A stretch of DNA of 50,860 nucleotides from Gammaproteobacteria bacterium. GTDB taxonomy: Bacteria > Pseudomonadota > Gammaproteobacteria > Natronospirales > JAJUFS01. Made by a program: the position numbers and the translations under genes. Below the pieces are notes generated by a model. That model was given only the letters and a program-made list of their open reading frames with translations. It had not been told where the DNA came from and ran no database searches. This document shows, in pieces, positions 21,231 through 40,600 of the stretch (its first letter is position 1; each line of letters starts with the position of its first letter). The stretch is taken from positions 1-50,860 of the forward strand of contig JAWWBS010000007.1 in assembly GCA_033720895.1 (NCBI GenBank), written 5' to 3'.

Positions 21231-22064
21231 ATGAGCAAGGGAAGCAGCGCGGCGAAGGGCGCCCAGCGACAGACCATGGCGGACAAGGCGGACATCTATG
21301 CCTTGTACGAGGACGCCGTCCAGGACGCGCCAGCGGAAATGGAGTTCATCGACGAGACCTTCGAGGAGCTGCGTGGCCGCAAGGCCGAGGGCCTGCGTGA
21401 GGATTTCTGCGGTTCCGCCTGGGCAGCCTGCGAGTGGGTGAAGCTCGACCACGGCAAGCGCGCCGTCGGCGTGGATCTCGACCAAGAGGTGCTCGAGTGG
21501 GGGCGCCAGCGCCACTATGCCAAGCTTTCCGCCGACGAACAGCGGCGCATCCAGCTGATCCATGGTGACGTGCTGGCAACGCCTACGGAGCCCGTGGACG
21601 TCACGGTAGCGATGAATTTCAGCTACTGGATTTTCAAGACCCGTGAGCAGCTCCGGAAATACTACGAGACCGTTCGGGAAGGCTTGAGCGAGGATGGCAT
21701 CTTCGTCATGGATTGCTTCGGCGGCTACGAAGCCTTCCAGGACGAGTACAAGGAAAATCGCGATTGCGGCAAGTTCACCTATGTCTGGGAACAGGATCGC
21801 TACGATCCGGTTTCGGGCGATTACACCTGCCACATCAGCTTCCGCTTTCCGGACAAATCCCGCCTGGATCGCGCATTTACCTACGAATGGCGTCTCTGGA
21901 CCCTGCCGGAAATCCAGGAGCTGCTGCGCGAGGCCGGATTCTCGAAAGTCACGGTCTGGTGGCAAGGCACCGATGAAGATGGCGACGGGGACGGGGAATT
22001 CGAGCCGGTCGAGGCAGGCGAGGCGGACCCCGCATGGATTACCTACCTGGTGGCCGAGCGCTAG
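21231..22064 (+). CDS. Class I SAM-dependent methyltransferase
   Basis: 277 residues, cytoplasmic. The Rossmann-type motifs are REDFCGSAWAACEW (motif I variant; the usual E/DxGxGxG is replaced by DFCGSA), AVGVDLDQE (motif II, acidic end of strand 2), HGDVL, and VAMNFSYWIF (motif IV region). The C-terminal part has an acidic DEDGDGDGEFE loop. The start follows GGGGAGG/AAGG purine runs. The substrate is unknown. It is divergent from the Fur-controlled iron permease and may be affected by the same operator, though nothing else ties it to iron. Confidence 0.85.
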   Translation: MSKGSSAAKGAQRQTMADKADIYALYEDAVQDAPAEMEFIDETFEELRGRKAEGLREDFCGSAWAACEWVKLDHGKRAVGVDLDQEVLEWGRQRHYAKLSADEQRRIQLIHGDVLATPTEPVDVTVAMNFSYWIFKTREQLRKYYETVREGLSEDGIFVMDCFGGYEAFQDEYKENRDCGKFTYVWEQDRYDPVSGDYTCHISFRFPDKSRLDRAFTYEWRLWTLPEIQELLREAGFSKVTVWWQGTDEDGDGDGEFEPVEAGEADPAWITYLVAER

Positions 22065-22232: not shown

Positions 22233-23129
22233 ATGGTCAACGAAACGCAGCTGACGATACTGTTTGCCGACGTTTGCGGAAGCACGAAACTCTACGACAC
22301 GATTGGGGACGTCAAGGCACGTGAAACCATCGCGCGCTGTGTTTCCATCATGACGGCGGCCACCGAAAGGAACAAGGGTACGTTGATCAAGACCATTGGC
22401 GATGAAGTCATGGTCACTTTCCCGACGGCCGATGATGCCTGCACGGCAGCTTCGGAGATGCAGGAAGAGATCACCGAGAATCTTGTGGTCGATGGTCGCA
22501 ATATCGAAATCCGCATCGGTTTTCATCATGGTCCTGCCTTGCTCGACAAGGGCGACGTGTTCGGCGATGCCGTCAACGTGGCAGCTCGAATGGCTGGACA
22601 GGCCAAGGCCGGCCAGATCATCACCACCTCGAGTTCCGTCAAGGAATTCGGCCCGCTGTGGGAAGATGCGGTGCGGCAGATCGACAGAGCCGTGGTCAAG
22701 GGCAAGAAGGACGAGATCGATCTCTACGAAGTCCTCTGGCAGCGCGAGGACGTCACGCGCATGGCTTCAGTCGGTTTCGGATCATCGACCACGGAATTGC
22801 GCGGGCGCCTGATGCTCGAATACAAGGGCAACAGTATCGAGGTCGGCGAGGATCGTCCGACTGTCGTCATGGGTCGTGCCGACCAGAGCGACCTGGTGGT
22901 CAAGCACAACCTGGTCAGCCGCATGCACGCCAGAATCGAATTCCGCAAAGGCAATTTTTTCCTGACCGACCAGAGCATCAACGGCACCTTTGTGCACATC
23001 GATGGTGGTGAGGATCGTTTCGTACGCCGCGACAACGTCCAGTTGACCGGTACCGGTGTGATCGGGCTGGGGCAGGCGCTGGACGACAAGGAGCCGGAAG
23101 CCATCCTGTTCAAGTACGAAGCGGGCTGA
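22233..23129 (+). CDS. Class III adenylate cyclase with C-terminal FHA domain
   Basis: 298 residues, soluble. Residues ~5-170 form a class III nucleotidyl cyclase domain with the metal-binding Asp13 (LFADVCGST) and Asp57 (KTIGDEVM), Lys53, and GDAVNVAARM giving Asp112, Asn115 and Arg119; Lys plus Asp suggests ATP as substrate and an active enzyme. Residues ~195-290 are an FHA domain, a phosphothreonine reader, with MGR (G214-R215), S229-R-x-H232 and N250-G. The start MVNETQL (22233) is preferred over 22191 because it begins just before the first cyclase strand and follows AGGAG. It converges with the kinase/phosphatase operon, whose products could supply its phospho-Thr ligand. Confidence 0.9.
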   Translation: MVNETQLTILFADVCGSTKLYDTIGDVKARETIARCVSIMTAATERNKGTLIKTIGDEVMVTFPTADDACTAASEMQEEITENLVVDGRNIEIRIGFHHGPALLDKGDVFGDAVNVAARMAGQAKAGQIITTSSSVKEFGPLWEDAVRQIDRAVVKGKKDEIDLYEVLWQREDVTRMASVGFGSSTTELRGRLMLEYKGNSIEVGEDRPTVVMGRADQSDLVVKHNLVSRMHARIEFRKGNFFLTDQSINGTFVHIDGGEDRFVRRDNVQLTGTGVIGLGQALDDKEPEAILFKYEAG

Positions 23130-23166
23130 TTTGCCGGCGCGGATGAACCGGCAGGTGACGTGATTG

Positions 23167-23193
23167 AAAAAGGCCTCCCAGGAGGCCTTTTTT
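23167..23193. terminator. Bidirectional intrinsic terminator
   Basis: A5-GGCCTCC-CA-GGAGGCC-T6 forms a compact hairpin with A and T tracts on both sides. It serves the cyclase-FHA gene (plus) and the kinase operon (minus), which converge here. Confidence 0.88.
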
Positions 23194-23216
23194 GATGGTC
23201 GTCGGCAGGGCCCGAA

Positions 23217-23777
23217 TCAGCTGCCTGGCATGAAATCCATTCGCTCGGCAAACACGCGCAGGCGAGCTGCCTGCATCAGTCCTTCGGGCGTACCCAGTGC
23301 TTCGTATTCCTTGATACGAGATTCGGCTTGCGATTTCAGGCGCCGGTACCAGAGGCTCTGGCGAGCCGTCTCGCGCTCGAACCCGGTAAGTTCCTGCCAG
23401 TTCGACTCCAGGTTTTCCAGGGTCGGTTCGTCCCATCGATCCGCCTCGACGAACCCCCGCAGCAGCTCGACGCCGGGCTGCTCCTTGATCACGATTTCCG
23501 CGGGCTCCTCTGCTGGCTGGCTGGTGAGCTGGATGAGCAGCGATATCGCCAGCATCGCTATCAGCAGCACACCCACCGACAGCATGATCAGCTTGCGCCG
23601 ATCGACCTTGGGAGTGGCTTGCGGACGATTGGTCGGGCGAATGTCGCGATACTTGATGGATACATCGCCGTTCACGATGGCATCGATCAATTTCCCTCGC
23701 TCGCGACGATAGTCTTCCTCCGGCATCCCGCCGGAAGCAAACTTTCGCGTCAGATCGCGTAGCTGCGAAACCTTCAT
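23217..23777 (-). CDS. SHOCT-like single-pass membrane protein, last gene of the kinase operon
   Basis: 186 residues. The start MKVSQLRDL (23777) has a GGAG-type site upstream; a frame from 23828 would overlap the kinase stop. Residues ~5-38 (LTRKFASGGMPEEDYRRERGKLID) resemble a SHOCT short helical motif. A basic stretch (VDRRK) leads into one membrane helix (about 62-84), so the N-terminus is probably cytoplasmic and the helical C-terminal 100 residues periplasmic. It starts 31 nt after the kinase stop and is surely co-transcribed. Its topology mirrors that of the kinase (cytoplasmic N, periplasmic C), which suggests a partner, but no function is known. Confidence 0.82.
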   Translation of the reverse strand: MKVSQLRDLTRKFASGGMPEEDYRRERGKLIDAIVNGDVSIKYRDIRPTNRPQATPKVDRRKLIMLSVGVLLIAMLAISLLIQLTSQPAEEPAEIVIKEQPGVELLRGFVEADRWDEPTLENLESNWQELTGFERETARQSLWYRRLKSQAESRIKEYEALGTPEGLMQAARLRVFAERMDFMPGS

Positions 23778-23808
23778 CGTGACTGCTCCGTCCTTGTATT
23801 CCCTGGCC

Positions 23809-26800
23809 TCAGTCCGTCTCTCGCGCAACCCGGAAGCCGGTGATCTCGCTGGCCTGGCCGGAGAAGTTGCGACTCAAGCCGATGTCACAGGTCGACAGGT
23901 TGTCCTGGAACGCACCGCCGCGAGCCGCATGCCCACCGCCGTCACGCACCACTTCCTGTACGTTGCCGACGTAGTTCATCAGGCCCCACGGATTTGCACG
24001 CCCGGACTTGATCTCGAGCATCGTCAGACCCTTGAGGATCTGCCCGCCCTGGGTAACACGGCAGTTGAAGTTGGTCACTGCCTTCGGGTTGGTTGCAGTG
24101 GCCGCATAGCTCCACTCGGCCGCGGTCGGCAGGCGATACTGCTTGCCGGTCGTCTGGGTCAGCCAGTTGACGTAACCCTGCATGACGCTGAGCGAAATGT
24201 TGGTAGCCGGCATGCCGGTATCCGAGTTGACCGGGCAATTGCTGCTGGCCCTGCAATAGGCGTTCAGGTCGCCGTTCGAAATCTCGTACTTGCCGATGGC
24301 GAAGGGCTTGCTGATGCCGCCGCCTGCAGGTACGACAACCAGCTCCGGACCACGCGTGCTGCCGCTCAGGATATCGAAGCAGACAGCGCGACCGGAGCGG
24401 CCGAAGCCGGCCAGGCTTGCGGTGCAGGGCCGCGAGCCATCGGCACTGCGGGTCGGCGCGCGGGTGGTCGTGAAGTTCTTGGCGAGCTCGTCCTTGTACT
24501 TAGGATTGTCGGTCCAGAAGCTCAGTGCAGCATCGAGGTAACGCTTGGCTTCCGTTTTCTGGCCACGCGCCATCAGCTGCTGGTAGCTCGAGTAGTAGAC
24601 ATTGGCCTGGTCCTGGCGCTCGCCGAGTTCTCTCGCAAATTCGGCGACCTGCTGGTTGCCTGGCTCTTCACGACGCGCCGTGGCGAGAATGTTCTCCGCC
24701 TCGGTGAGCTGCTTGCGCTCCATGGCCTGGCGGGCCGACGGGACGTACTTGGAGGGACGGGGCGGGGCCTTGAGGCTCAGACCGTCAATGACGCGCGTTC
24801 CGGGGAACAGGCGCTTGGCGGCATCCCACAGGTCGTTGGCCGCAGTCACGTCAGAGGCTTCCAGTCGCTTGATGCGATCGGCCAGCTGGCGCATGGCTTC
24901 GTTCTGGATGGCGGTAGCGTCATCCGGGAACAGGCCACGAACTTCACGCAGCAGCGGCGGCAGGTTGCCGATGGTGCCGGTCGTAGCCTGGGCTGCGCCC
25001 TTGATCAGCTGCTCGCGCTTGGCGAGGTTCTCGTAGTCCGAGAGGGCCTTCTCGAGGCCCTGCATGCCCGGCACGTATTCCAGGCCACGCTGCGCGAACT
25101 GCACGGCGTTGGCGAATTCCTCGCGCTCCGCCTGGGCTGTAGCCAGTCGCAGGAAGCTGTCGGCAATCATCTGCGGGCCGGTCGTGGTGATGAACTCGTC
25201 ATCGACGGGCAATTCCTGCTTCAGCTGCTCGAAGGTATTGATGGCCGCATTGATGTCGTTGGCATTCGTCTGTGCGACCAGGCTGTTCTTGGCCGCGTTG
25301 ATCTGTGCAAGGCGGATGCGTTCGGCCTGGCGGCGGTCGAAGTCGGCCTTGGCAGCAGCCAGCTTCTCTGCCTCGGCATCGAATACAGGCAGGCCCGGGT
25401 TGAAGGCGCGGGCGGCCTGCAGGCTGCGGGTAGCGGCATCAAAGCGTTCGGCTTCGACCAGCTGGCGGGCATTGTCGACATAGGAATCGACGATGCGCGT
25501 CTGCATCTGGTCGAACCAGGTGTTGCCCGGGCGCAGCAAACTGATGGTTTCCTTGAAATTGCGAAGCAGTTCATCGGACCACTCGTTGTTGTACTGCGGC
25601 GAGGCCAGCAACCTGTTCATGGCCTGCTGGCGCTCGTCCAGGGCCGCCAGCACTTCGCCGAGGTTCTCGGGCTGGTAGCCGGCGTTCACTTCCGCACGGG
25701 ACAGGGTATTGCGCATGTCCAGCAGTTCAGGCACGGAGAACATGGTCGCGAAGGTGCGCAAGAGGCCTTCGGCCTGGCGCCATTCGCTCGCTGCGATTGC
25801 CTGCTGCAGGCTGCTGCTGACCGAGCTGCGCAGCGGCGTGACGATTTCCTTCAACAGTGCGTCATCCGGGCGAAGTTCCTCGAGACGACGGAGGTCGTCG
25901 ACGACCGTGGCGTAATCAGCCACCGTCTTGAGATCGCCCTTGGCTGCGTTGAGGCGATCCTTGATCTCGGCGACCAGTCGCGCATCGGCCTGGCGCTGCA
26001 GTTCGCGTGTCACCTGGTCATCCAGGTTGAGCAAGGAAGCATCCGTCGCCGAGTAGTCGAGACCGGCGGTCAGGTATTCCTTGGCGCGCTGCCATTCGCC
26101 GTCGGCGATGGCCTGCTCTGCCAGGGTGGCATAACGTTGCGAAAGACGGGCGTCTTCGAGCAGCGGGTTGCCGGGATCGGCCTGGCGCAGCTTGGCGAGC
26201 AGGTCGGTAATGTCATCCTCGCCCTCGATCGGCATGAGCCGGTCTTCTGCCAGGTAGTTGTCGAAATCGGTGGTCAGTTCCGAGATCAGGCCGTTCCGGC
26301 GGCTGATGATGTCGGACTCGATGCTCAACAGGGCGGCCGAGTCCTCGTAGTACTGCTTGGCTTCCTGGATGACGGCAAGCGCCTGCGGGAAATCGTACTT
26401 GTCCTGGGTTTCGTCGATCGCCGCTTCGGCGCGTTGCTCGAAGTACTCGAAAATCGTTTCACGACCGATGTCGAGCAGGTTCTGGTCGGCACGTTCGCTC
26501 AGCTCGTCGCTCTTGATCAGCTCCAGCACTTCCGGCACCTGGCGCTGTCCGGCGTCGAGCTCGGCAATGATGTTGTTGACTTGCTTGTCTTCGATGAATT
26601 CGACAACCGGCTTGTAGGCCAGCACGCCGATCAGCAACGAGAAACCGATGCTGGCAGCGGCAATCTGCAGCGTGTAGCTCTTCTTGAAGCGAACGCCATC
26701 CCAGAACTCCTCGACGGAGCTCGTGCGATCGGCACGCTTGAAGGCAAGGGCCTTCATCAACGCCTTGTTCTGTCGCTTGGTGAAGCCGGGCTTGTTGATC

Positions 26801-28335
26801 GGGGCAGGGGAGAGACCTTTCTCCATTGCCTTGACGGACGACAGCTTGTTGAACGGATGCTTGCCCGTCAGCAGTTCATAGGCGACACAGGCCAGCGCGT
26901 AGATGTCATCGCCCGGTGCCGGATCCTCGCCTTCGAACATTTCCGGGGTTGCGTAGGCGGGCGTCAGCGCGCCCAGCTGGCCCGGGTCGAAGACCGTGGT
27001 TTCGCCGGCCGCATCGGAACGGGTGGTCGATGCGCGCGCGATACCGAAGTCGAGAATCTTGACCGTGCCGTCCTTGAGGTAGAAACAGTTGCCCGGCTTG
27101 AAATCGGAATGCACGAGGTTGCGGGCATGTGCGTATTCCAGGCCTTCACAAAGTTGCTGCACGATGCCGAGCGCGTCCTCGGTCGGCAGGCCGCCCGGCG
27201 GCAGCTTCTTGATGAACTGCGCCAGCTCCTGGCCTTCCATGAGCTCCATGGTGAGATAGACGGTCGGACCGTCGCGGTCGAAGTCGTACACCGTGGTGAT
27301 GTTCGGGTGAGCCAGCTTCTGCGCCTTGGAGGATTCTCGCTGCAAGGCGATGAACGCCTCGGGGTGCTCACGGAAATCACCGGACAGCAGCTTGACGGCG
27401 ATGTAGGGGTTGCGGTCCTTGGCTTCGACCTTGAGAAGGTCACGGGCCTTGTAGACCTTGCCCATACCGCCCTCGCCGATGGCCGAGAGCAGTTCGAAAC
27501 GATCCTTCAGGATGGTGCCGGGGCCGATGCTGTCCGGGTCGAGGGCGGAACCCTTGCCCTGGAAGTTGGTGGCCGTCGGCCAGCCGGTACCGGTCGGGCT
27601 GCTCATGCCGCCGCCGGGCGCCGTGGAATTCGCCATGGCGAACGGGTCTTCCTCGTCCGAACCACGCAGGGCGCCGGGACGCTGGGTCGGGTCGTCACCA
27701 CCTACGACAGTGGCATCGGGGTCGCGAACAACCTCGGTCTTGTCACCGCCAGCCTGGGGAACGACTTCGGTCTTGTCGGAATCGGCAGGCTTCTGCACGA
27801 CTTCGGTCTTGTCGGAATCGGCTGGCTGCATGACTTCCGTGCGATCACCAGCATTGGGATCGGACGCCGGCGCATCACCGGTCGCAAAGGGGTCGATGGT
27901 GCCGAAGGGGTTTTCTTCCGACTGACCGACAGCCTGGCCGCCGTCGTCTTCGCTCGCCGTGGTGTCTTCGCTGCTGTCGGATGACGCGGGTTCGGCAGGT
28001 TCTTCAAGGCTTAGCTCACCGTCGAAGGAGGGCGCCTCCATTTCCGGATCGACCACGGTCTTGTCGCCGTCGTCGGCGGCGGGCACTTCCAGGTCGAAAT
28101 CGAATTCCAGGCCGCCATCGTTGCCCGAGTCGCCACTCGGCTCACCTTCGATCATTCCCTGCAGCGCGGCGACCATGTCGTCGGGCAAGGCCCCCTTCAC
28201 TTCGTCAAGCTGGGCACTCAACTGCTCCCGGGTGGCATCGCCTTCCTCGAGTGCATCTTCCACCCAGCTGCGAACCGTTTCGAGGCTGGCATTTCCCTGT
28301 GTCAGCTCCGAGAGCAAGTCTTTGAAATCGGCCAC
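23809..28335 (-). CDS. Transmembrane Ser/Thr protein kinase with C-terminal FGE-sulfatase (C-lectin-like) domain
   Basis: 1508 residues. The start is GTG (28335) with AGGGGA 7 nt upstream. A short helical domain (1-62) comes first, then an acidic disordered linker with D-K/R-T-E-V repeats (91-211). The Hanks-type kinase follows (about 280-545): GEGGMGKVY, K314 in AVKLL, VHSDFKPGN (HSD in place of HRD, catalytic D411), DFG (429-431), ATPE. The activation segment contains GETTVFDPG. One membrane helix lies at ~556-575. About 730 residues of helical, TPR- or coiled-coil-like sequence follow, presumably periplasmic. A 181-residue FGE-sulfatase/C-type-lectin fold ends the protein (1328-1508: VPAGG, RLPTAAEW, YVGNVQEVV, ARGGAF, GFRVAR). 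I see no paired active-site Cys as in true FGE, so ligand sensing is likelier than catalysis. It is flanked by its presumed phosphatase. Confidence 0.92.
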   Translation of the reverse strand: MADFKDLLSELTQGNASLETVRSWVEDALEEGDATREQLSAQLDEVKGALPDDMVAALQGMIEGEPSGDSGNDGGLEFDFDLEVPAADDGDKTVVDPEMEAPSFDGELSLEEPAEPASSDSSEDTTASEDDGGQAVGQSEENPFGTIDPFATGDAPASDPNAGDRTEVMQPADSDKTEVVQKPADSDKTEVVPQAGGDKTEVVRDPDATVVGGDDPTQRPGALRGSDEEDPFAMANSTAPGGGMSSPTGTGWPTATNFQGKGSALDPDSIGPGTILKDRFELLSAIGEGGMGKVYKARDLLKVEAKDRNPYIAVKLLSGDFREHPEAFIALQRESSKAQKLAHPNITTVYDFDRDGPTVYLTMELMEGQELAQFIKKLPPGGLPTEDALGIVQQLCEGLEYAHARNLVHSDFKPGNCFYLKDGTVKILDFGIARASTTRSDAAGETTVFDPGQLGALTPAYATPEMFEGEDPAPGDDIYALACVAYELLTGKHPFNKLSSVKAMEKGLSPAPINKPGFTKRQNKALMKALAFKRADRTSSVEEFWDGVRFKKSYTLQIAAASIGFSLLIGVLAYKPVVEFIEDKQVNNIIAELDAGQRQVPEVLELIKSDELSERADQNLLDIGRETIFEYFEQRAEAAIDETQDKYDFPQALAVIQEAKQYYEDSAALLSIESDIISRRNGLISELTTDFDNYLAEDRLMPIEGEDDITDLLAKLRQADPGNPLLEDARLSQRYATLAEQAIADGEWQRAKEYLTAGLDYSATDASLLNLDDQVTRELQRQADARLVAEIKDRLNAAKGDLKTVADYATVVDDLRRLEELRPDDALLKEIVTPLRSSVSSSLQQAIAASEWRQAEGLLRTFATMFSVPELLDMRNTLSRAEVNAGYQPENLGEVLAALDERQQAMNRLLASPQYNNEWSDELLRNFKETISLLRPGNTWFDQMQTRIVDSYVDNARQLVEAERFDAATRSLQAARAFNPGLPVFDAEAEKLAAAKADFDRRQAERIRLAQINAAKNSLVAQTNANDINAAINTFEQLKQELPVDDEFITTTGPQMIADSFLRLATAQAEREEFANAVQFAQRGLEYVPGMQGLEKALSDYENLAKREQLIKGAAQATTGTIGNLPPLLREVRGLFPDDATAIQNEAMRQLADRIKRLEASDVTAANDLWDAAKRLFPGTRVIDGLSLKAPPRPSKYVPSARQAMERKQLTEAENILATARREEPGNQQVAEFARELGERQDQANVYYSSYQQLMARGQKTEAKRYLDAALSFWTDNPKYKDELAKNFTTTRAPTRSADGSRPCTASLAGFGRSGRAVCFDILSGSTRGPELVVVPAGGGISKPFAIGKYEISNGDLNAYCRASSNCPVNSDTGMPATNISLSVMQGYVNWLTQTTGKQYRLPTAAEWSYAATATNPKAVTNFNCRVTQGGQILKGLTMLEIKSGRANPWGLMNYVGNVQEVVRDGGGHAARGGAFQDNLSTCDIGLSRNFSGQASEITGFRVARETD
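27700..28065 (-). repeat. Acidic linker with D-K/R-T-(E)-V-V phospho-acceptor-like repeats in the kinase
   Basis: Residues 91-211 of the kinase carry six related motifs with Thr at 93, 166, 177, 189, 200 and 209 (DKTVV, DRTEV, DKTEVV three times, DATVV) in Asp/Glu/Pro/Ala-rich sequence. Such spaced Thr motifs upstream of a kinase domain look like autophosphorylation or FHA-docking sites (inference). Confidence 0.7.
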
Positions 28336-28389
28336 TTCAGTTTCCCCTGGCTGCGACCCTGCGCCGCCGTCTGCTTGTTGTCAGAATAT

Positions 28390-29112
28390 TCAGTTTATGG
28401 TCACCGTGATGACGGTGACGTTGTCTCTTGCGCCTCGGTCCAGTGCGAGGTCCACACCGGCCTTGGCGCGATTGCCGCGTCCCTTCAGTATCTTGGTGAT
28501 GTCCGCCGGCTGCAATTCCTTGTAAAGACCGTCACTGCAGAGCAGGAAGCGATCCCCTTTCTGCAGTTCGAAAATGTCCATGTCGACAAACACCTCGGGC
28601 GCCGCCCCGATGGCGCGCGTGATCCGGTTGGCCTGCGGATGGTGCTCGGCTTCTTCCTGGCTGATCAGGCCGACATCCACCATGTCTTCGACCATGGCAT
28701 GGTCCTGGGTCAGCTGTTCCAGTGTTCCCTTGCGCAGGCGGTAGACGCGGCTGTCACCTGCCCAGATGCAGATGGCGTGGCTGTTGCGGGCAATCATGAC
28801 GGATACCGTGCTGCCGATGGTCTGCTTCTCGGAATCCTCGGCCAGCTTGACGAGCCGTGTGTTCACATCACGAAGGCAGCGTTCGACCTGGTCGGCCAGC
28901 TGCGCCAGGGAATCGGCGGCCGGCATCTCGTCCAGCGCGGCCGTGATGGCCTGGCTGGCAACATCGCCAGCTGCATGACCCCCCATGCCATCCGCCACGA
29001 CCCAAAGACCCTTTTCAGGGCGATCCAGGCAGGAATCCTCGTTGACCTTGCGGACCGTACCGACGTGGCTGACGGCTTCGGAGCTCCAGGCAAATCCTTC
29101 TGTCGACCCCAT
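28390..29112 (-). CDS. PP2C-family Ser/Thr protein phosphatase
   Basis: 240 residues, soluble, metal-dependent. Visible PP2C motifs are VRKVNEDS (E25-D26), VVADGMGGHAAG (D41-G42), IWAGDSRVYR (D120), LCSDGLY (D194-G195) and ARDNVTVI (D230-N231). This is the full metal-binding set of the bacterial Stp/PrpC/PppA type. The ATG at 29112 has AGGGGT upstream; an in-frame TTG directly precedes it. It is the first gene of a three-gene minus-strand operon (54-nt gap to the kinase) and should reverse the kinase's phosphorylation. Confidence 0.95.
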   Translation of the reverse strand: MGSTEGFAWSSEAVSHVGTVRKVNEDSCLDRPEKGLWVVADGMGGHAAGDVASQAITAALDEMPAADSLAQLADQVERCLRDVNTRLVKLAEDSEKQTIGSTVSVMIARNSHAICIWAGDSRVYRLRKGTLEQLTQDHAMVEDMVDVGLISQEEAEHHPQANRITRAIGAAPEVFVDMDIFELQKGDRFLLCSDGLYKELQPADITKILKGRGNRAKAGVDLALDRGARDNVTVITVTIN

Positions 29113-29482
29113 CAATAACCCCTGAGCTGCCTCTGATGTAGTGCCTGCCGTACGCCATCCGGAGTACCCCCGATTCCGGCTTGCAGGTTGACATAAAATA
29201 TAGCGGCTGGCGCACGATTGCCATAATAAAAGTGAAGATTGTTGGGTACTTGGCTGGCAGTGTTCAGGCTGAAAATAAGTGGAAACAAGTCCGATATTGA
29301 ACTAATCAATATTCCAGCCTTGGATTATTGCAAATCAGCCGTTTGCAGAATATTGTTAAGTCGCAATATTCGGGGGTTGTCACCGATTGGTGACGGCATG
29401 GCGCTGTGGTAGCGGACCTTTACATGGAGGCGGGGTGCCACGGCGAACAGATCGGTGCTGAACCGATTCTTGAGGGGATTAC
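29113..29482. promoter_or_regulatory. AT-rich divergent control region between the phosphatase-kinase operon and tpsB
   Basis: This is the only gene-free stretch over 300 bp. Its middle (about 29190-29370) is much richer in A/T than the rest of the window. It holds three AATATT-type blocks: 29309-29316 and an inverted pair GAATATT (29348-29354) / AATATTC (29365-29371). A perfect inverted repeat GTCACC-GATT-GGTGAC (29379-29394) follows and could be an operator. No open frame or RNA gene is recognisable. AT-rich DNA upstream of an adhesin locus would suit nucleoid-protein (H-NS/MvaT-type) silencing, which is inference. Confidence 0.5.
29328..29356 (+). promoter_or_regulatory. Candidate tpsB promoter
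   Basis: TTGCAA (29328-29333), a 17-nt spacer, then TATTGT (29351-29356); both boxes are 4/6 or better. The -10 overlaps the left arm of the GAATATT inverted repeat. An alternative pair is TTTGCA (29342) with AATATT (29365), also at 17 nt. Confidence 0.35.
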
Positions 29483-31549
29483 ATGCAAGTCGTGATTGAA
29501 TCTTCCGCAGGCCTGGTCGGCGTGACGACCAGGCATATCCGCATGGTCATGTTGGGCGTGTTCGCCTGCCTGTCGACGCCGGCGCTGGCCAACACGCCGT
29601 TGCCGTTGCCAGACCTGCCGCCACTTCCAGGTGGTTCGTCGCAGCCGCAGACACAAGGTGAATTGCCTTCTCCGGTATTGCCTGCTGCACCCGTGCTCGA
29701 TCCCAACCAGCTGGTGTTCGAAATTCCGCCGGTCTTCCAGCGCCCACTCGGTGTCGACGAGGGCGGTCGTGTATTCGTGCGCAAGTTCGTCATCACCGGC
29801 GTGATCGATGATCCGGAAGCCGGCATCATCAAGGAAGAAATCGATGCCCGCGTTGCCGCGCGCTTCGAAGAACTGAACGAACTGCTTGCGCGCCTCCGTG
29901 TGGCGCGCCAGAACCAGGAGGATGTCGGGCCGGATGGCTTCACGCCGGACGAGCGCGAAGCAATTGTCGATTTCATGTCGGATGTGGTGCGCGACCTGAG
30001 CCCTGATCGCCAGGTGCGTGCCTACCAGTCTTTCGTGGACCAGTTGCGCCTGCAGCGACTCGAGCGCAACCAGGGCCTGACCATCGGCCAGTTGCAGTTG
30101 ATTGCCGATGAAATCACGCGCTATTACCGCGAGCGGGGTTACTTCCTTGCTCGCGCCGTCGTGCCGGCCCAGGAAGTCGTGGAAGGCATCGTGGCGATCC
30201 GCGTGCTGGAAGGACGCCTCGGCCAGGTCTTGTCCGACGGCAACCGTCGCTACAGCCATTCGCGCCTGCAGGCACCGTTCCGTGACCTGACCGGCAAGCT
30301 CGTTACCGTGGAAAAGACGGAAGACGCCTTGCTGACCTTGCAGGGTTATCCCGGTTTGAGTGCTGTCGGCGTGTTCCAGCCTGGCGGTGAAGTCGGTGAG
30401 GCCGATTTGCTGATCAACGTGTCGGAGGAGGACCCGCTGGACTTCCTGGTACGCGTGGACAATCACGGTACGCGCTTTACTGGCGAAAATCGCCTGCTGG
30501 CCGATGCCATTTGGAACAACCCGTTTGGCGCGGCCGATTATCTCGAGCTGACCGTGCTGCAGACGTACTCGCCGGACAACTCGCTGTTCGGCTCGTTGAA
30601 GTACCAGGTGCCGTTTTCCAACCCGCGTCACAAGATCGGCATCGAACTGACCAACAATTCCTTTGACGTCGACAGCCTTTCCCAGTCTGCAACCGACAAC
30701 GACGCGGGCGGTACTTCGGACATCTACCGCCTCTACTACGACTGGAACCTCAGCCGGACCCGTGCACGCCGCACGGCCCTCAAGTTCGATCTCGCGCGCA
30801 AGGTTGCCGACACCGAGGTGTTCGGCCGGGTCACTGCACGCGATGATATCGACGTGTTCGGTGCGCAGTTCGATTACGAGTTGATCAGTGCAGAAACCGC
30901 AACCATCGTCACGGCCTATGCCCGCGTCGATATCGGCCTTGACGGTGCGCTCGGTGCACCGACCGTGGAAGAACTCGAAGACGGCAGCATCCAGCCGCCG
31001 CCGACTATCGCGGGAGTGGGCGCAGACTTCACCAAGGCGTCGCTGGGCATGTCGTGGTTGAAGAGCATGACTGCCAACCAGTCCTTGCTGTTGCGAGCCA
31101 ACGGCACCTACACCGCCGACCCGCTGACCTCGCTGGAGCGCTTCGTCATTGGCGGACCGGCCAGCGTGCGTGGCGTGCCGAGTTCGCAGTTCCTTTCAGA
31201 CTACGGCGCGTTCGTTTCCGTGGAATGGGGCGTGCGTGCGCCGGGCTTTGCAGACAAGCCGGCATTTGCCAATCGCAACTGGGGTGACCTGCTGCGCTTC
31301 ACGGTGTTCGCCGATTATGCGCAGGGTTATTTCAACGAGGTTGGTGGCGGCAGCAGCGCCAACATTTTCGATGACATCACCGAATCGGGTTATGGCATCG
31401 GCATCGAGTTCGGCTTGCCGGGTTCGTTCAGCTTGAACGTCCAGGCAGCGTGGCGCAGCGGTGGTGCGGACGAAAATCCGCAACCAACCGATCCGCGCGC
31501 CGTGTTTGATGACAGTCAGTACTGGGTCGACTTCACCTGGCAGTTCTGA
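29483..31549 (+). CDS. TpsB outer-membrane transporter (FhaC/ShlB family) with an insertion in POTRA1
   Basis: 688 residues, Omp85 superfamily. It secretes the adjacent TpsA across the outer membrane. The long signal peptide ends STPALA (cleavage near 36); the start is supported by GAGGGG 6 nt upstream. A Pro-rich linker (about 38-90) and two POTRA domains (about 97-245 and 246-316) precede a 16-strand-type barrel. The barrel has the conserved VRG at 562-564 (GGPASVRGV) and a C-terminal aromatic strand ending TWQF. POTRA1 begins VRKFVITG and resumes at LTIGQLQLIADEITRYYRERGYFLARA, but ~85 charged helical residues (about 112-197) sit between, where FhaC-type proteins have a short link. It is co-directional with tpsA, 140 nt upstream. 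Confidence 0.93.
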   Translation: MQVVIESSAGLVGVTTRHIRMVMLGVFACLSTPALANTPLPLPDLPPLPGGSSQPQTQGELPSPVLPAAPVLDPNQLVFEIPPVFQRPLGVDEGGRVFVRKFVITGVIDDPEAGIIKEEIDARVAARFEELNELLARLRVARQNQEDVGPDGFTPDEREAIVDFMSDVVRDLSPDRQVRAYQSFVDQLRLQRLERNQGLTIGQLQLIADEITRYYRERGYFLARAVVPAQEVVEGIVAIRVLEGRLGQVLSDGNRRYSHSRLQAPFRDLTGKLVTVEKTEDALLTLQGYPGLSAVGVFQPGGEVGEADLLINVSEEDPLDFLVRVDNHGTRFTGENRLLADAIWNNPFGAADYLELTVLQTYSPDNSLFGSLKYQVPFSNPRHKIGIELTNNSFDVDSLSQSATDNDAGGTSDIYRLYYDWNLSRTRARRTALKFDLARKVADTEVFGRVTARDDIDVFGAQFDYELISAETATIVTAYARVDIGLDGALGAPTVEELEDGSIQPPPTIAGVGADFTKASLGMSWLKSMTANQSLLLRANGTYTADPLTSLERFVIGGPASVRGVPSSQFLSDYGAFVSVEWGVRAPGFADKPAFANRNWGDLLRFTVFADYAQGYFNEVGGGSSANIFDDITESGYGIGIEFGLPGSFSLNVQAAWRSGGADENPQPTDPRAVFDDSQYWVDFTWQF

Positions 31550-31689
31550 GCAGGTGAAGTGGTGGCCGGCATCCGTTGATGCCGGTCGGTTCGTTAGGTG
31601 CAAGTCCGGGCCTGGAGGTCCGGGCCGAGTAGATGCCCTCCGGGGGCGAGCGGCGGCTGAAAACCAGTCGTTGCAACAGGGGTGAGATC
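31531..31689 (+). other. Structured tpsB-tpsA junction (four hairpins)
   Basis: Four hairpins can form. CTTCACCTG/CAGGTGAAG (31531-31539/31551-31559, 9 bp) spans the tpsB stop codon. CCGGCAT/ATGCCGG lies at 31566-31572/31579-31585. A GTCCGGGCC direct repeat (31604-31612, 31618-31626) can fold back with one G-U pair. GCCC/GGGC encloses the 31635-31647 segment. None is followed by a T-run, so simple termination is not predicted. The tpsA ribosome site AGGGGTGAG is downstream of all four. Confidence 0.5.
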
Positions 31690-34600
31690 ATGACCGCAAA
31701 GTCGGCAGCCAAGCGTTACCTTCGTTCTGCAACAGCGACATTCGTTGCAGCCTACCTGGCACTTGCATTCGGAGTGTCGGTAGCAGGCCCTACAGGCGAA
31801 AGCGTCGTCTCCGGCGAAGCTCGAGTCACTCGACCTGACCAGGTGACAACCAACATCGACCAGCTTACCGACCTGGTAATCATCGACTGGTCGACGTTCA
31901 ACGTCGCGTCCGATGAAGTGGTCAACTTCATCCAGCCCAGTTCCGACGCCGCTGCATTGAACCGCATTCTCGATCAGAACCCCTCCGAGATTTTCGGTCA
32001 GATCAACGCCAATGGACGCCTGCTGCTGGTCAATCCCTACGGTTTCGTCTTCGGCCGCAACGCGTCGGTCGATGTCGGCAGCCTGTTCGTTTCCGGTCTC
32101 GACATTTCCAACGACAGTTTCCTGAGCGGTGACTGGCAGTTCAACAACACCGACGGCAGCGTCGGTGGCCTGATCATCAACCACGGCCTTTTGCAGGCGG
32201 CCAACGGTGGTTCCATCAACCTGTTTGGCGGCGGCGTCGTCAATGACGGTGCAATCCTTGCCGACTTCGGCACGGTGAATATCGGTGTCGGCGAGCAGGT
32301 CACCATCGACTTCGATGGCGACGGCCTGATCCAGTTCGCGGTCGATGGCGAGGTGCTGGAAAATGCCTATGGTCTCGACTCGGCAATTGCCAACAGCGGC
32401 GAAATTGCCGCGCGTGGCGGTTCCATCCTGCTGTCGGCGTCCGCTGCACGCGATGTGTTCTCGCAGGTCGTGAACAATGAAGGCGTGATTGCAGCGCAGG
32501 GCGTCGAAGACGTCGAAGGTCGTGTCTACCTGGTAGGCGAGGGCGGTGTCGTTGCCAACAGTGGCGTCATCGATGCCAGCAACGATTCGGGCAATGGCGG
32601 CACCATCCAGGTCCTGGGCGACCAGGTTGCCCTGGTCGGCGATGCCGTGCTGGATGCTTCGGGCAGCGCGGGCGGTGGCGACATTCGTGTCGGTGGTGGA
32701 ATCCAGGGTGGTGAAGGACTGCAGGAAGCCTCGCATGCCTACGTGGGCAGTGACGTTGTCATCAATGTCGATGCCACGCAGGACGGCGACGGCGGCAGTG
32801 CCGTCGTCTGGTCATCCGATGGCACGCGTTTCTACGGTTCCATTTCGGGCCGTGGCGCCGGCAGCGGCGACGGCGGCTTTGCGGAAGTGTCGGGTGGCGG
32901 CCTGGTCTTCCAGGGCCTGGTCGACATGTCCGCCGAGAACGGCGAATTCGGTGTGTTGCTGCTCGATCCGGACGACATCGTGATCGCGGCTGGCACCGGT
33001 GACGGTGACGACTCCGGTGGTGGCTCCGGCACGCTGGACGACCCGACCATCCTGTTCGGTGATACGCCGACGACGTACACGGTTTACGAAAGCGAGCTGG
33101 AAAGCGTTTCCGCCGGCACCTCGATCATCCTGCAGGCGGTCAACAGCATCACGACCAGTGGTGGCGCGTTCACGGTCACCCTGACGGCCGGCACGGACAT
33201 CACGCTGGAAACCACCAGCAACACGGGCGCTGGCATCAACATCGCCGACATGACGCTGGTGACTACTGAAACGGCTGACATCGTGCTGATTGCCGGTTCG
33301 GATGGCGGTGCGGGCACGGCCACGGTAACCGTGGGCACACTGTCCACTGCGCCGGGCACCGGCGCGCTGAATACCGGCAACATTTCCATCACGGCTGATA
33401 GCGATATCACCGTCAATGGCGCGCTGACCACGGGCAGCATTGCCGATACCCAGGACCAGGATTCCGGTGACATCACCCTGACCTCGACGGGTGGCGCGAT
33501 CACCATCGGTGGCGGAGCATCACTGACCACCGGTGATGTGGATGTCACCTCCAACAACAACCAGGCGCTCAGCGGCACCATCAGCCTGACGGCCGACGGC
33601 AACATCGATATCAGCGGTGCGCTGACCACCGGTGACACCTCGGCCAATGACGACGTGGCCGACTCCGGCGCGATCAGCATTACCAGCAACAACGGCACGG
33701 TAACCACCAATGCCGGCGGCACCTTGACGACCGGTGCGGCCGATGGCGATGACACCCTGAACACGGATTCGGGAGGCATCACCATTGCGGGCGCCAATGG
33801 CGTGACGATTGGCGACGCCGTGACGACCGGCAATGCCTCGAATACCGGCAACAACGTGGCGGTGAATTCGGGTGCTGTGACGATCAGCTCCTCGGCAGGC
33901 AACGTCGCGATTGATGCGGCGGTCGCGACCGGTACTGCAACGTCGGCCGATGACCAGGGCATATCCGGCGCTATCAACGTGACTTCGACGACGGGCACGA
34001 TTTCCTCCAGCGCGGGTGGCACGATTGCCACCGGCGCGGTCGACGGCGATGACCAGGCTTCGACTTCCGGTTCGGTAACCCTGACCGCCTCGACCGGCAT
34101 CGCGCTCGGCGATGCCGTCAGCACCGGCACGGCGACACTGGATGCCAACTCGGTTGCCGCAACGTCAGGTGACATCACCATCTCCACCACCACGGGCAAC
34201 ATCAGCGGCACGTCGCTGGCCACGGGTGCCTCCACGCCGACCTCGGGCGGCGGTGCTGCCATTTCCGGCGATATCGACGTCGATGCCACGGCAGGAGCCA
34301 TTACCTTCACCGGCACCGTCAGCAGCGGTAGCGCCACGTCCGCACAGGATGCCTCGACCTCCGGCCTGGTCGATCTCCTGGCCGGTGGTGGCGACATCAC
34401 CGTGGCCAGCGTGGTCTCGGGCAATGCGACCTCCAGCACCGGTGATGTGCAAGCCACCTCCGGCAGCGTGACGCTGGCGGCCTCGGGCGCCATCGCACTG
34501 AGTGGTGCCGTGGGATCGGGTTCGGCAACGTCGGCCGATCTCGATGCCGTGACCGGCAACGTATCGCTGACCGCCAGTGGCGGCAGCATTTCCGGTGCAG

Positions 34601-37600
34601 GCACCGTCTCCTCCGGCGATGCGCTGGGTGACGGCAATGGCACGACGGAGATCGCGACCTCAGGCAACGTGACGCTGGACGCCAGCGGCAACATCACCTT
34701 GTCGGCAGCCGATGCCGTCGCCACGGGCAATGCGTCGCTGGACGATGATGCGGGCACCAATGACACCGCGACCATCGGCTCGATCAGCCTGGTGTCCGAT
34801 GGCCTGATTTCCAGCGATGGTGCGACCGGTCGCCTCGATGTTTCGGTGGGCACCGGCTCCCTGACCAATGCCGATGGCGCCATCGTTGATGGCAGCCTGA
34901 CGCTGGATCTCAGTGGCGGCACCGATTCCGCCTACGTCACCTCGGGCGAGAACCTCGCCGTTGCCGACATCGACACCGGTGCCGGCGCGCAGACGGTCGA
35001 CATCACGACCTCCGGTACCGCGAACCTGACCATCGAAGACATGACGGATTCGATCTCGGGCGACACCGTTTCCTTCGCCACCGTTGATGGCACCCTGACC
35101 ATCAATGACACGGCCTTCGCCATCGGCGCCGGCAGCCTTTCGCTGGAAGGCGCCGAAGTCGATTTGCTGGGTGGTGCGAACAGCATTACCGGCTCCGGCG
35201 CGGTGACCATTTTCCAGAGCACCGTCGCACAGGACATGACCATCGGTGGCGCCACGGACGATGCGGCGCTCAACCTGACCAGCACGGACATCGCCGCGCT
35301 GGCTGACGGTTTCGCGAGCATCACCCTGGGTCGTGCCGACGGCACGGGCCTGGTGAGCACGGATTCCGGTGGTGTGAGTTTTGCCGATCCGCTGACCATC
35401 CAGTCTGGTGGCGCCAGTGGCGATGTGATCGTCGGTGGCACCTTGACCGGCACGGGCGATGCGACCATCGACCTGCTGGCCGGAAACGAGATCGCCCTGT
35501 CTGGCGATATCGTGACCTCTGGCACGGCGGTGACGCTGGATGCCACGACGGTCGACCTGGACGTGGCGGCGATCAGCATCGACACGACCAATGCCGGCGG
35601 CACGGCCACCGGCGCAGCGATCAATTTCAACTCGGGCTTGCTGACGGACGTGCTTGGCGCGGCCTCGTCGCTGACCCTGAACGCCGGTACGACCGGGCAG
35701 GTCGACCTCAATGGTGGTTCGATCGGCGGTGACCTGACGGTCGACGCCGACATCATCAACCTGAACAACGCCACCCTGTCGGTGGGCGGCAATGCCGATC
35801 TCGACACCTCGGCAGGCACCGGCACGATTGCGGACAACGGTTCCGGCGCGCTGTCGGTGGCCGGCACGACCACACTGGCCGTGGGCGCAGCCGTCGACCT
35901 GGTCCTGGACAGCACGTCCAACGATTTCGATAACGACGACAACGGTGGCGCGGTCAGCGTCACCTCGGGCAACAACATCACCCTGGTCGATGCGGACAAT
36001 ATCGACCTCGGCGCCATCACTGCCGGTACCAGCCTGACGGTTACCGCTGCGGGCAACATCACCGACAGCGGTACCGTGATTGCACCGACGGCCACATTCG
36101 ATGCCGGCGGTACCACCGAGGGCACGAACGACGTGCTGCTCGATTCGGCAGCCAACGATTTCGACAGCATCGTGATCACCCAGGCGGGTGACGCGGTGAT
36201 TGTCGATGTCGACGAAATTTCTTTCGGCGCCTCGACGATCTCCGGCGACCTCGATGTGACCGCAGCCGATACCATTTCGCAGAGCGGCGCGCTTGTTGTC
36301 ACGCTGACCTCGGCATTCACCACGACCAATGACGACCAGGCGATCAGCCTGGGCAACACCGGCAACAGCTTCGGCGGTGCGGTGTCCTTCACCACGGCCA
36401 CCTCGGGCGGCAACGCGGGCAACGTGACCGTCGATGCAGGCCTCGGCGGCATCGAGTTCGGCGCTTCGACCATTGCCGGCAACCTGTCGGTCATCGCCAA
36501 CAACGGTTCGGTCACCCAAAGCGGCGCGCTGGACGTGATCGGCACTGCCGGCTTCGTGCTCAGCAACAACAACACCGTGACCCTGGTCACTGCGGGCAAC
36601 GACATCGATGGCACCGTCAGCTTCTCGACGGATGGCACGGGCGCCAATGTCAGCTTCACCAATACCGATGGCGATGCTTCGGGCACGACCATCGGCGCTT
36701 CCACGGTCGACGGCAGCCTGACAATCGTGGCCGGCGACGCGCTGGTTGTCGGTGGCGCGCTGGATACGTCAGCCGATAACGGCGTGATCACGCTCACCGG
36801 TGGCACCAGTGTCACCATTGCCGAGGACGGCCTGCAGGCCGGTGCCGGCAACATCAGCGTGACGGCCTCGGGCGGCAATATCGAAGACGCTTCGGCAGGC
36901 GCTGACACCAACGCCAACATCACCACCACCGGCCAGATTGCACTGACGGCTTCCGGCAGCATCGGCACTGGTGCCGATCCGGCCGACCTCGACCTGTCGG
37001 GTACCACCGACCTGGTGCTGTCGGCGGGCACCGACATCTTCATTTCGAACGATGTCGAGCTGACCAATTTCGCGCTGACCTGGACGCCGAGCACGAGCAC
37101 CTTCTCGCTGTCCGGTGCGACCACGATCTCGCTGTCGGATGACGGCACCGACACGACGCTGACCACGGCGTCCAACACGGCGCTGGACCTCGACTTCAGC
37201 CTGACCACCACCAGTGGCGACCTGCTGGTCGCTGACGGCGCGATCAACACCATCGGCGCCGGCAACGTGTCGCTGACCGCGCAGGCCGGTTCGATCCTCG
37301 ATTCGACCCCGGGTGCAGACGGTGCTGTTGCGGTGACTACCACCGGTACCCTGGCACTCGATGCGGCGAACAACATCGGTACCTCGGCCGGCGTCGGCGC
37401 ATTCGACGTCGACGTTTCCGGGCTCGTCAGCCTGACCAGCGGCGGCGACATTTTCCTGGATACCAGTTCCAACCTGACGCTGACCGCCATCCAGACGGCG
37501 GTGGGCGCGAACACGCTCAACCTGTCGGCCGATACGGCGGGCGCGCAGATCCTGCTGGGCGGCAGCTCGGCCAGCTACATCAACGTCAGTGACGACGTGC

Positions 37601-40600
37601 TCGACATCGATGGCGGTACCGGCGATGTCACGTTCAACGTGACCGGCGGTCTCGTGGTCGGCTCCGTGGACATCGACACCGGGGGCAACGTCAACCTCGA
37701 TGCCAACCTCTCGACGGCCGATTCGGTTGACGGTGCGAGCGGTGACATCAACATCCTGACCTCGGGCGGCAGTCTGGTCAGCGGTGGCACGGCCACCCTG
37801 GCGACCGGCAATGCCGACGACAGCAATTCCGGTGATGGTGGCGGCATTACGTCCGGCTCCATCGTCGTCAATGTGAGTGGCACCATCGACAACTCGGTGA
37901 CCTTCGCCACCGGCACGCCGACCGATTCCACCGGCGGTGCCAATGACACCGTGACGGCGGGCTCCATCAGCCTGACGGCTTCCAGCATCGGCTCCGCGGG
38001 CAATGCCGTCGAACTGAACTTCGGCCAGCCCACGGGCGGTTCGGGCCAGGTGCCCGGCGTCCTGACGCTGGAGACGACGGGCGGCGCGGGTGCTGGCAGC
38101 ATTTATGTCACCAGTACCAGTGCGGCCGACTTCGAAGTCGGCAACATCACCGTGGCGGGCACGGGCAATGTCATTTCCCTGAATTCCGACAACTCCGGTA
38201 TCAGCCTGCCGACCACCGGTGATTTCCTTGGCGCCGGCATTTCGACGGCCGACCTGGTGATCACCACCGGTGCGGGCGGGGCAATCATTTACGATCGCAC
38301 CTCGGCGCATACCTTCAACAGCGTCACCATCAACTCGGGCGACTTCCTGACGATCAACCAGGACATCACCTCGACGGGACTGATCGACATCGATGCCGCC
38401 GGCCTTGTCACGCTGAACAGCGCGCTGGCTACGACGGCCAGCACCACCGGCACGACGGCAGCGATCAACATCACCACCACCGCCGGCGGCAACCTGACCG
38501 GCGCGGCCGGCAGCATCACCACCGGTGACGCCGACAATTCCGGCGGTGGCACGAATGTCACGGCAGGGGACATCACCCTGAATATCGCCGGTACCGTCGA
38601 TAACACCATTTCCTTCACGGCGGGCGATGCCACCGACACTGGTGCCAACACGGCAACGGCCGGCTCGATCAGTGTCACTGCAGCCTCCATCGGCAGCGCG
38701 GGTAACGAAGTCATCTTCTCCACCGGCACGGCGTCTTCGTTCGGTGGCAGTGCCGCCAGCGGTGTCCTGGACATTGCCACCACCGGCGGTGCCGGTGCGG
38801 GCGGTGCCTTCGTCGATGGCAATGGCGTGCAGTTGCTGATTGGCGACCTGTCGACGGCGTCGAACACCAATGCCAACGAATTCAACTTCATCAATGCCGG
38901 TGCAGCCATCCAGTTCGTGGCCGGATCGGTGTACGGCAACCTGGGTGCCCTGACGCTGGACGTCGACACCACCGGTGCCGGCGGCAATGTCGTATTCAAT
39001 GAAGCGATCACGGTCGGCACGCTGGAGATCAACACCGGCGACACCGTGTTCTTCCTGGCCAATACGGGTACTGCGGACAACGCGACGGCCTCGGGCAACA
39101 TCACCATCGTTTCCGGCGGTGGCGTGTCGGGCAACGCCAGCCTGTTTACCGGCGACTCCTCCGGTGGCACCAGCGGCAGCATCGACATCACGGCATCGGG
39201 CAGCATTGCCGATACCCTGGCGCTGAACGTTGGCGCGGCCAGCACCACCGGTGGCGACATCAACCTGGATGCCAACGGCATCGGTACGGATGCCGCGAAT
39301 GCCCTCGATGTCGTGTTCGGCACCGCCGGCACGGCCGGTCAGCTGAACCTGACGACCAACGGCAGCAGCGTGTTCATCACCTCGCCGAGCGACCTGGTCG
39401 TCGGTGACATCACGGCTACCGGAACGGAAACGGTGTCCATCGGTTCCACGGCGGGTGGTGCGATCAGCTTCGATTCGCTCGGTTCCGATACCAGCATCGG
39501 CAACATCCTGCTCGACGTGAATACCGCGGGTGGCGGCACGGTGACCTTCGATCGCGCCATGACTGTCGGTGTCATCGATGTGGATGCCACCGGTGAGGTG
39601 ATCGTCAATGCGGCGCTTGCTACGACCACGGGTGCGCTGGGTACTTCGGGCGATATCAACATCACCACGACGGGTGCGGGCGGCCTGTCCGGCACGGCTG
39701 GCTCGCTGACCACTGGCTCGGCCAGCAATGGCGGCGGTGGCACCAACGTCACCGCAGGCAGCATCACCGTGTCGGTGGTGGGCGACATCACCAATGGCGT
39801 GAGCTTCACCACCGGTGACGCTCTCGATACCGCAGCCCTCTATACGGCGACCTCGGGCAGCATCAATCTCGACGCGGCCAATATCGGCGGCCTGGGCACG
39901 GAAGTGGCCGTGACCATCGGTACGGCGTCGGGTGGTGCAGTCAACGACCAGGGCGAACTGAACATCGCGCTGTCGGGCGCTGGTACGGCGGAGGCTTACG
40001 TCAGCTCTTCCTCCAGCCTCGAAGTCGGCACCATCGACACCGTGCTGGCACAGGCCGATACCGTGTCCGTGCTGGTCACGGGCGGCAATACCCTGACCTT
40101 GACCGCGGCGCTCGATGAAGACTTCACGCCGAGCCTCACGGACGACAACCTGATCTTCAACGCGCAGGACGGCACCTACGACGGTACCGGCATCGCCGTC
40201 GACCTGGGTGCGGCCGGCTCGCTGAGCGTCACCTCGGATGGCCTGTCGGCCGGCAGCTTTGCCTCCGTCGAGGAAGCCGGTGGTGGCATCTCCGTGTCGC
40301 CGTTCACGGCCGGTACGACCATCGGTCTTGGCACCGGTGCAGGCACCTTCCAGCTTTCCGATGCCGATCTTGATGCGCTGGTCACCGCCTCGGGCGGCCC
40401 GGGCGGCGTCCTGTCGGTCGGTACGGCCGGGGCGGGCGGCTCCGGTGACGTGACCATCGATGACGTGACCTTCGGTACGGGCCAGACCCTGATCGTGAAC
40501 ACCAATGGCACGATCAATGACGACGACGATATCGGCTTTGCCTATGTCGGTGGCCAGCTTGTGCTGAATGCCGGTACCGGCATCGGCACGACCTCGAACC

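Follow-up and report, generated by a model that had tools for sequence, protein, structure and literature searches.

A Possible Phospho-Threonine to cAMP Relay Encoded beside a Giant Two-Partner Exoprotein in Gammaproteobacteria

Introduction

Few second-messenger outputs are known to us for the eukaryotic-like kinases of bacteria, and dedicated signalling genes are, to our knowledge, not usually described for two-partner secretion (TPS). It is in the PknG-GarA/OdhI system where the closest counterpart of the locus described here is found: PknG autophosphorylates its disordered N-terminus, recruits in this way the FHA protein GarA/OdhI, and then phosphorylates the ETTS motif located beside the FHA domain (PMC8546545). 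In type VI secretion (T6SS), the PpkA/PppA/Fha pathway co-encodes a kinase, a PP2C phosphatase, and an FHA protein, with the latter reading the phospho-Thr made by the kinase (PMC3953482). Ser/Thr kinases with a C-terminal FGE/DUF323 (NirV) domain, such as the chlamydial ones, and also a Myxococcus PKN2-type fusion of a Ser/Thr kinase with a nucleotide cyclase domain, have been described as well (PMC1262709). In parallel, Par27, a parvulin of the PpiC kind, was found to bind a Bordetella TPS adhesin, and its loss did not lower secretion (PMC8151025).

Results

The Genes of the Locus

The window, meaning the whole stretch of 50,860 nucleotides analysed here, is contig 7 of a 2.2 Mb genome assembled in 124 contigs, the closest named relatives of which are gammaproteobacterial assemblies. 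A first-pass annotation had placed four genes between 22233 and 29112, i.e., a PP2C phosphatase, a transmembrane Ser/Thr kinase, and a small membrane protein on the minus strand, facing a class III cyclase fused to an FHA domain on the plus strand, and all four are present there by Pfam, NCBIfam, and sequence. The feature is larger, with the TpsB and TpsA genes directly beyond the phosphatase and a methyltransferase before the cyclase; these secretion partners had been missed, together with Thr175 of the cyclase linker and a large sister clade of cyclases without the kinase. The features are the following:

21231..22064, plus strand: SAM-dependent methyltransferase gene, upstream of the cyclase (weak Pfam Methyltransf_11/25 matches; synteny in 35 loci)
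22233..23129, plus strand: predicted class III adenylate cyclase fused to an FHA domain, 298 aa (Pfam, AF2, PDB fold matches)
22755..22757, plus strand: codon of the interdomain-linker residue Thr175, a proposed phospho-acceptor within the motif EDVTRM (108/108 invariant, entropy 0; pLDDT < 50 at 173-188)
23217..23777, minus strand: small single-pass membrane protein with helical N- and C-terminal parts (conserved beside the kinase; AF2 model)
23809..28335, minus strand: transmembrane Ser/Thr kinase, 1508 aa, with a long extracytoplasmic part (Pfam, orthologue alignment)
23821..24309, minus strand: kinase FGE-sulfatase (C-lectin fold) ectodomain, residues ~1343-1505 (Pfam, orthologue alignment)
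26701..27495, minus strand: kinase catalytic domain, residues ~281-545, where HSD replaces HRD (Pfam, orthologue alignment)
26995..26997, minus strand: codon of the activation-loop Thr447, motif GETTVFDP, invariant in 14 aligned orthologues
27703..28065, minus strand: linker at the kinase N-terminus, in which D-x-T-x-V occurs six times (Thr 93, 166, 177, 189, 200, and 209; from sequence)
28390..29115, minus strand: PP2C phosphatase, probably of the Stp1/IreP type, ATG start at 29112 (Pfam, NCBIfam, catalytic motifs)
29483..31549, plus strand: TpsB (ShlB/FhaC-type) outer-membrane transporter with POTRA_2 (Pfam; beside the kinase/cyclase set in ~20 loci)
31690..50841, plus strand: TpsA giant two-partner exoprotein, ~6.4k aa, start at 31633 or a later ATG (TPS secretion domain, adhes_NPXG, DUF5649 repeats)

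The TpsA reading frame with its DUF5649 repeats runs nearly to the contig end. The methyltransferase is a frequent neighbour of the cyclase in relatives, including genomes where the cyclase stands alone, and a promoter and terminator scan gave no signal exceeding that of shuffled sequences.

Comparison with Described Systems

This locus resembles the PknG-GarA/OdhI system in a Thr placed beside the FHA domain, which is conserved here as Thr175 (108/108), and in the [DE]xTxV pattern, which the PknG-system peptide VETTSVF also fits (PMC8546545), and it may resemble it in the Thr sites of a disordered kinase N-terminus that would recruit an FHA protein. The D-x-T-x-V repeats lie in the kinase segment of many, not all, orthologues. 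The locus differs in having a transmembrane kinase with an FGE ectodomain, and in carrying its FHA domain on an adenylate cyclase and not on a dehydrogenase inhibitor, the fusion being no OdhI/GarA orthologue (22.6 bits vs. an OdhI cut-off of 200). Phosphorylated GarA/OdhI, as Nott et al. reportedly found in 2009, folds on itself.

As in the PpkA/PppA/Fha pathway, a kinase, a PP2C, and an FHA protein stand together and are tied to a secretion system, but here it is two-partner secretion that adjoins them, and the FHA domain sits on the cyclase. The window kinase shares with the chlamydial-type enzymes the combination of a kinase and an FGE-like domain in one chain; its FGE domain, however, lies past the transmembrane segment and a long coil, and its gene is linked to those of the PP2C, the cyclase, and the TPS pair (its match to the PknD model is weak, at 94.8 bits vs. 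839). With the Myxococcus PKN2-type fusion, the locus has in common the coupling of a Ser/Thr kinase to a nucleotide cyclase domain, although in our case each is carried by a protein of its own, and FHA recognition is what we propose to bring the two together. Finally, TpsB with POTRA/ShlB domains, TpsA with the TPS domain, and a PpiC gene nearby in relatives are as in FhaB/FhaC-type secretion with its Par27-like parvulin, whereas kinase-cyclase signalling genes such as those found here are not in the TPS loci described in the papers searched. No direct precedent for the combination of FHA-cyclase, kinase, and TPS was found in the open-licence literature.

Conservation and Gene Orders

Full-length cyclase-FHA proteins were found in ten genomes, including the one studied here, in a search of 56 relatives, and a kinase or phosphatase adjoins the cyclase in six of the nine others (L034, L035, L036, L037, L039, and L041). 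Of these, L035 has the exact window layout: the methyltransferase and the cyclase come first, the opposite-strand genes of the small protein, the kinase, and the phosphatase are next, and TpsB and TpsA close the series. Scanning named genomes yielded 80 loci, ~14 of which have the phosphatase and/or the kinase beside the cyclase. Among 370 sampled genomes of the class, the cyclase family occurs in 81, the closest kinase family in 26, and both in 24 (24/26; Fisher odds ratio 60, p 1.6e-15). In this comparison, kinases were searched for by their catalytic domain alone, and their family was delimited by a score threshold. Of the 24 kinases with the highest scores, 21 lie < 5 kb from the cyclase.

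Eighteen cyclase-kinase loci and two kinase loci without a cyclase were compared, many of the genomes being metagenome-assembled and some contigs ending within clusters. At least 14 family groups of Gammaproteobacteria carry the set, arranged in two gene orders, and in the commonest arrangement TpsA-TpsB-PpiC run one way and cyclase-PP2C-kinase-small protein the other. Given that the window order differs from the commonest one, the set stayed together through rearrangement. Since its genes are neighbours in no fewer than 14 family groups and are strongly associated at the genome level, the kinase/phosphatase/FHA-cyclase set exceeds chance, and the conserved neighbourhood that the first-pass annotation had proposed to look for does exist, with the three genes together in many lineages. 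Two kinase loci, L151 (in the window's order) and L152, showed no cyclase at E<=1e-35, and therefore, the kinase must have other targets there. In L151 (G004:C31, 6187-6420), the cyclase is absent between the methyltransferase and the small membrane protein, the layout being otherwise that of the window, which on its gene content we read as a natural cyclase loss within the window's order.

A Clade of Lone Cyclases

In a tree of 106 cyclases, which is a quick tree with long branches present, the four linked sequences of the window's order stand beside a clade of 65 lone cyclases with a support of 100; the group adjoining them consists of 30 further linked sequences. Because of this placement of the lone clade among linked groups, the linkage to the kinase is probably ancestral, with a single loss in the lone clade. 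The transition-state residue Asn115 is mostly changed to His in this clade (61 cyclases), whereas it is kept in the window and in the 38/38 kinase-linked rows; the His115 cyclases retain the metal-binding, adenine-specifying, and FHA residues. Thr175 and the FHA pocket are likewise preserved in the clade of 65. In 18 sampled genomes (17 of the lone clade plus G035), no kinase reached scores similar to those of the linked family, with the best match there reaching 353 bits in a 512-residue frame of Steroidobacter agaridevorans. Since the lone cyclases keep Thr175 without the linked kinase, this residue may be a target of other kinases or have a structural function.

The Cyclase-FHA Protein and Its Linker Thr175

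The Guanylate_cyc (66.5 bits) and FHA (47.8 bits) matches of the fusion are both above the Pfam cut-off. The catalytic residues had been described as intact, and the alignment bears this out: D13, D57, K53, and D108, comprising the metal-binding Asp and the adenine-specifying Lys/Asp, are invariant in 108/108 homologues, R119 is present in 107/108, and with N115 the transition-state Asn/Arg pair is kept. The same holds for the phospho-Thr-binding residues of the FHA domain, also described as intact, where G214-R215, S229-R230-H232, and N250-G251 are invariant in 108/108. The AF2 model shows two confident domains (mean pLDDT 87.7) and matches Ma1120, CyaC, and CyaB in the PDB, which supports the class III fold. 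The window protein is a predicted class III adenylate cyclase that would make cAMP as a homodimer, and its FHA domain is a putative phospho-Thr reader. The same genome contains two more class III cyclases, L159 (G000:C39), which carries a CHASE2 domain by Pfam, and L160 (G000:C25), which is similar by sequence.

Between both domains, closely following the last cyclase strand, lies Thr175, which is invariant in 108/108 cyclase-FHA sequences with a column entropy of 0, is preceded at -2 by an acidic residue in all 108, and is followed at +2 by Met in 87%; a few residues past it, the column entropy climbs to 3-3.7 bits. In the AF2 model, the pLDDT is < 50 over residues 173-188, and residues 171-181 are drawn as a low-confidence helix; with this helix and with the motif so close to the last cyclase strand, Thr175 may have a structural role. 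Its context fits [DE]-x-T-x-[VILM], the pattern repeated in the disordered N-terminus of many linked kinases. The motif EDxTxM after the last cyclase strand was found in 0 of ~22 non-FHA class III cyclases in the same search, where two loose partial resemblances were seen (L023 and L024). On its conservation and context, we consider Thr175 the best mechanistic clue and the proposed phosphosite.

The Kinase, the Phosphatase and the Small Membrane Protein

The kinase matches Pkinase with 132 bits and, at its C-terminus, FGE-sulfatase with 38 bits, and a single transmembrane segment was placed by eye at ~residues 555-575. The C-lectin-like sensor attributed to this transmembrane kinase is therefore an FGE-sulfatase domain, which has a C-lectin-type fold and lies past that segment. 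The catalytic Lys, Glu, Asp, Asn, and DFG are invariant in the orthologue alignment, with the HRD of the window kinase reading HSD, and the activation-loop Thr in ExT[LV]FD, invariant across the 14 aligned orthologues, is better conserved than the linker motifs. These motifs, [DE]xTx[VIL], number 31 in the linkers of 15 orthologues vs. 4.2 expected by shuffling (maximum 11 in 2000), for a pattern defined after viewing the sequences and with within-protein duplication inflating the counts. Residues 160-215, which had been proposed as the docking stretch, contain D-x-T-x-V repeats; linker motifs of this kind are shared by many orthologues and lacking in several (L069, L136-L139, and L147-L149).

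In the orthologue alignment, the FGE ectodomain has several conserved cysteines; the FGE-type catalytic pair was not found in it, with one conserved Cys in the region where we take that pair to lie. Conserved cysteines without the catalytic pair fit an extracytoplasmic sensor role for this domain.

The minus-strand phosphatase, correctly assigned as PP2C, scores 214.5 bits against the Stp1/IreP NCBIfam model (cut-off 230) and has the catalytic motifs NEDS, DGMGGH, GDSR, and RDNVT. The small membrane protein has no Pfam match at 0.001 and no NCBIfam match, and the PDB fold search with its AF2 model gave no significant match. Its earlier description as "SHOCT-like" was a loose one, given that its homologues do not match the Pfam SHOCT model even at 0.1.

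The Two-Partner Secretion Genes

TpsB (POTRA_2, ShlB) adjoins TpsA (TPS domain), with Pfam scores over the cut-off, and the set usually includes both, often with a periplasmic PpiC isomerase, the PpiC-type prolyl isomerase gene lying between TpsB and the cyclase in loci of the commonest order. Wherever TPS genes occur together with a complete kinase, the FGE ectodomain is present, and five short-kinase loci without FGE are also without TPS (Fisher p 0.0017, the short kinases belonging to just two family groups, f101 and f122). In L041:12151-14957 (G024:C11), going by sequence and gene order alone, ExbB/ExbD-like and TonB-like genes come after TpsB. L087 (Pfam 151 bits), L135, L136, and L141 have an additional, separate FGE-sulfatase gene downstream of the kinase set.

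Discussion

We suggest that the kinase and the cyclase form a phospho-Thr relay, in which the FHA domain of the cyclase docks on the kinase, the kinase phosphorylates Thr175, the FHA domain clamps the modified linker, and cAMP synthesis changes; from the gene linkage, the conserved residues, and the analogy with PknG, we give this reading a probability of about 0.5. The periplasmic coil and FGE ectodomain of the kinase would sense some condition of the envelope or surface that is probably connected with the exoprotein encoded next to it, and that it senses the TPS system itself is a guess. The kinase would autophosphorylate its activation-loop Thr and the D-x-T-x-V repeats in its disordered N-terminal part, the cyclase FHA domain would dock on these repeats, and the kinase would phosphorylate Thr175. 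The FHA domain would then clamp pThr175, either in cis or from the other subunit of the dimer, altering the pairing of the catalytic domains and the rate of cAMP formation, and the PP2C would reset every phospho-site. We infer all of these phosphorylation, docking, and clamping events, and likewise the direction of the cAMP change and the sensed signal. With regard to direction, the phosphorylation could silence the cyclase, so that the kinase lowers cAMP; phosphorylated OdhI/GarA stops binding its targets, a precedent for phospho-driven self-clamping (PMC8546545), and by this analogy we regard silencing as possible, if doubtful.

Downstream, CRP and other cNMP-binding proteins would read the cAMP. 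The genome encodes a CRP equivalog (327 bits, cut-off 266), and thus cAMP has a receptor. No CRP box above chance was found in the intergenic regions of the window or in 24 cluster-upstream regions of relatives. A cNMP-binding gene beside the L036 cyclase was rejected as a cAMP receptor, being FNR-like with an N-terminal Cys cluster. Elsewhere in the genome, L158:322-3047 (G000:C12:26500-31000) encodes two tandem Ser/Thr kinases, each with a C-terminal cNMP_binding domain (Pfam Pkinase + cNMP_binding), and matches of similar length occur in several relatives; from this domain content, they are possible direct cAMP-kinase effectors.

The first-pass annotation had favoured a simpler scheme, in which the FHA domain binds the phosphorylated activation loop or linker of the kinase and thereby recruits the cyclase to the membrane or pairs two cyclases, with Thr175 being structural. 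The intact FHA pocket, the linker repeats of many kinases, and the invariant ExT[LV]FD Thr of the 14 aligned orthologues all agree with it, but it leaves unexplained why a low-confidence linker should hold a 108/108 Thr matching the kinase motif, and several linked kinases are without linker motifs, so we consider docking by itself unlikely. Improbable in our view, and placed after the former, is an indirect linkage where the kinase and PP2C serve the TPS system or the envelope via other substrates, and the cyclase-FHA is an ancestral neighbour that uses other kinases, the two sharing the regulation of surface adhesion. L151, having kinase, PP2C, TpsB, and TpsA beside an empty cyclase slot next to the methyltransferase, the abundance of lone cyclases, and the FGE-less kinases of TPS-less loci, which are few independent cases, speak for it; however, the cyclase follows the set through rearrangement, as a Cyc-PP2C-Kin operon in many lineages and convergently in the window's order, and the genome-level association of kinase and cyclase is strong. 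Control of a T6SS by the set is rejected since TssC is lacking in its own genome, in line with the earlier remark that no T6SS genes were visible, and TssC/VipB was also absent from 13 of the 14 other genomes searched (one of 15 positive).

In summary, a receptor-like kinase may, as a tentative reading that we hold at somewhat less than even odds, directly control an FHA-fused cyclase via an interdomain Thr in a phospho-Thr to cAMP relay coupled to the display of a giant exoprotein across Gammaproteobacteria. The neighbourhood is a ready test set for the phospho-Thr relay, with its orthologues, its natural cyclase losses, and its natural lone-cyclase clade. The set also suggests a signalling partner for two-partner secretion, and, if the relay is true, a kinase that gates a cyclase by way of an FHA domain would connect two signalling currencies that are usually treated apart.
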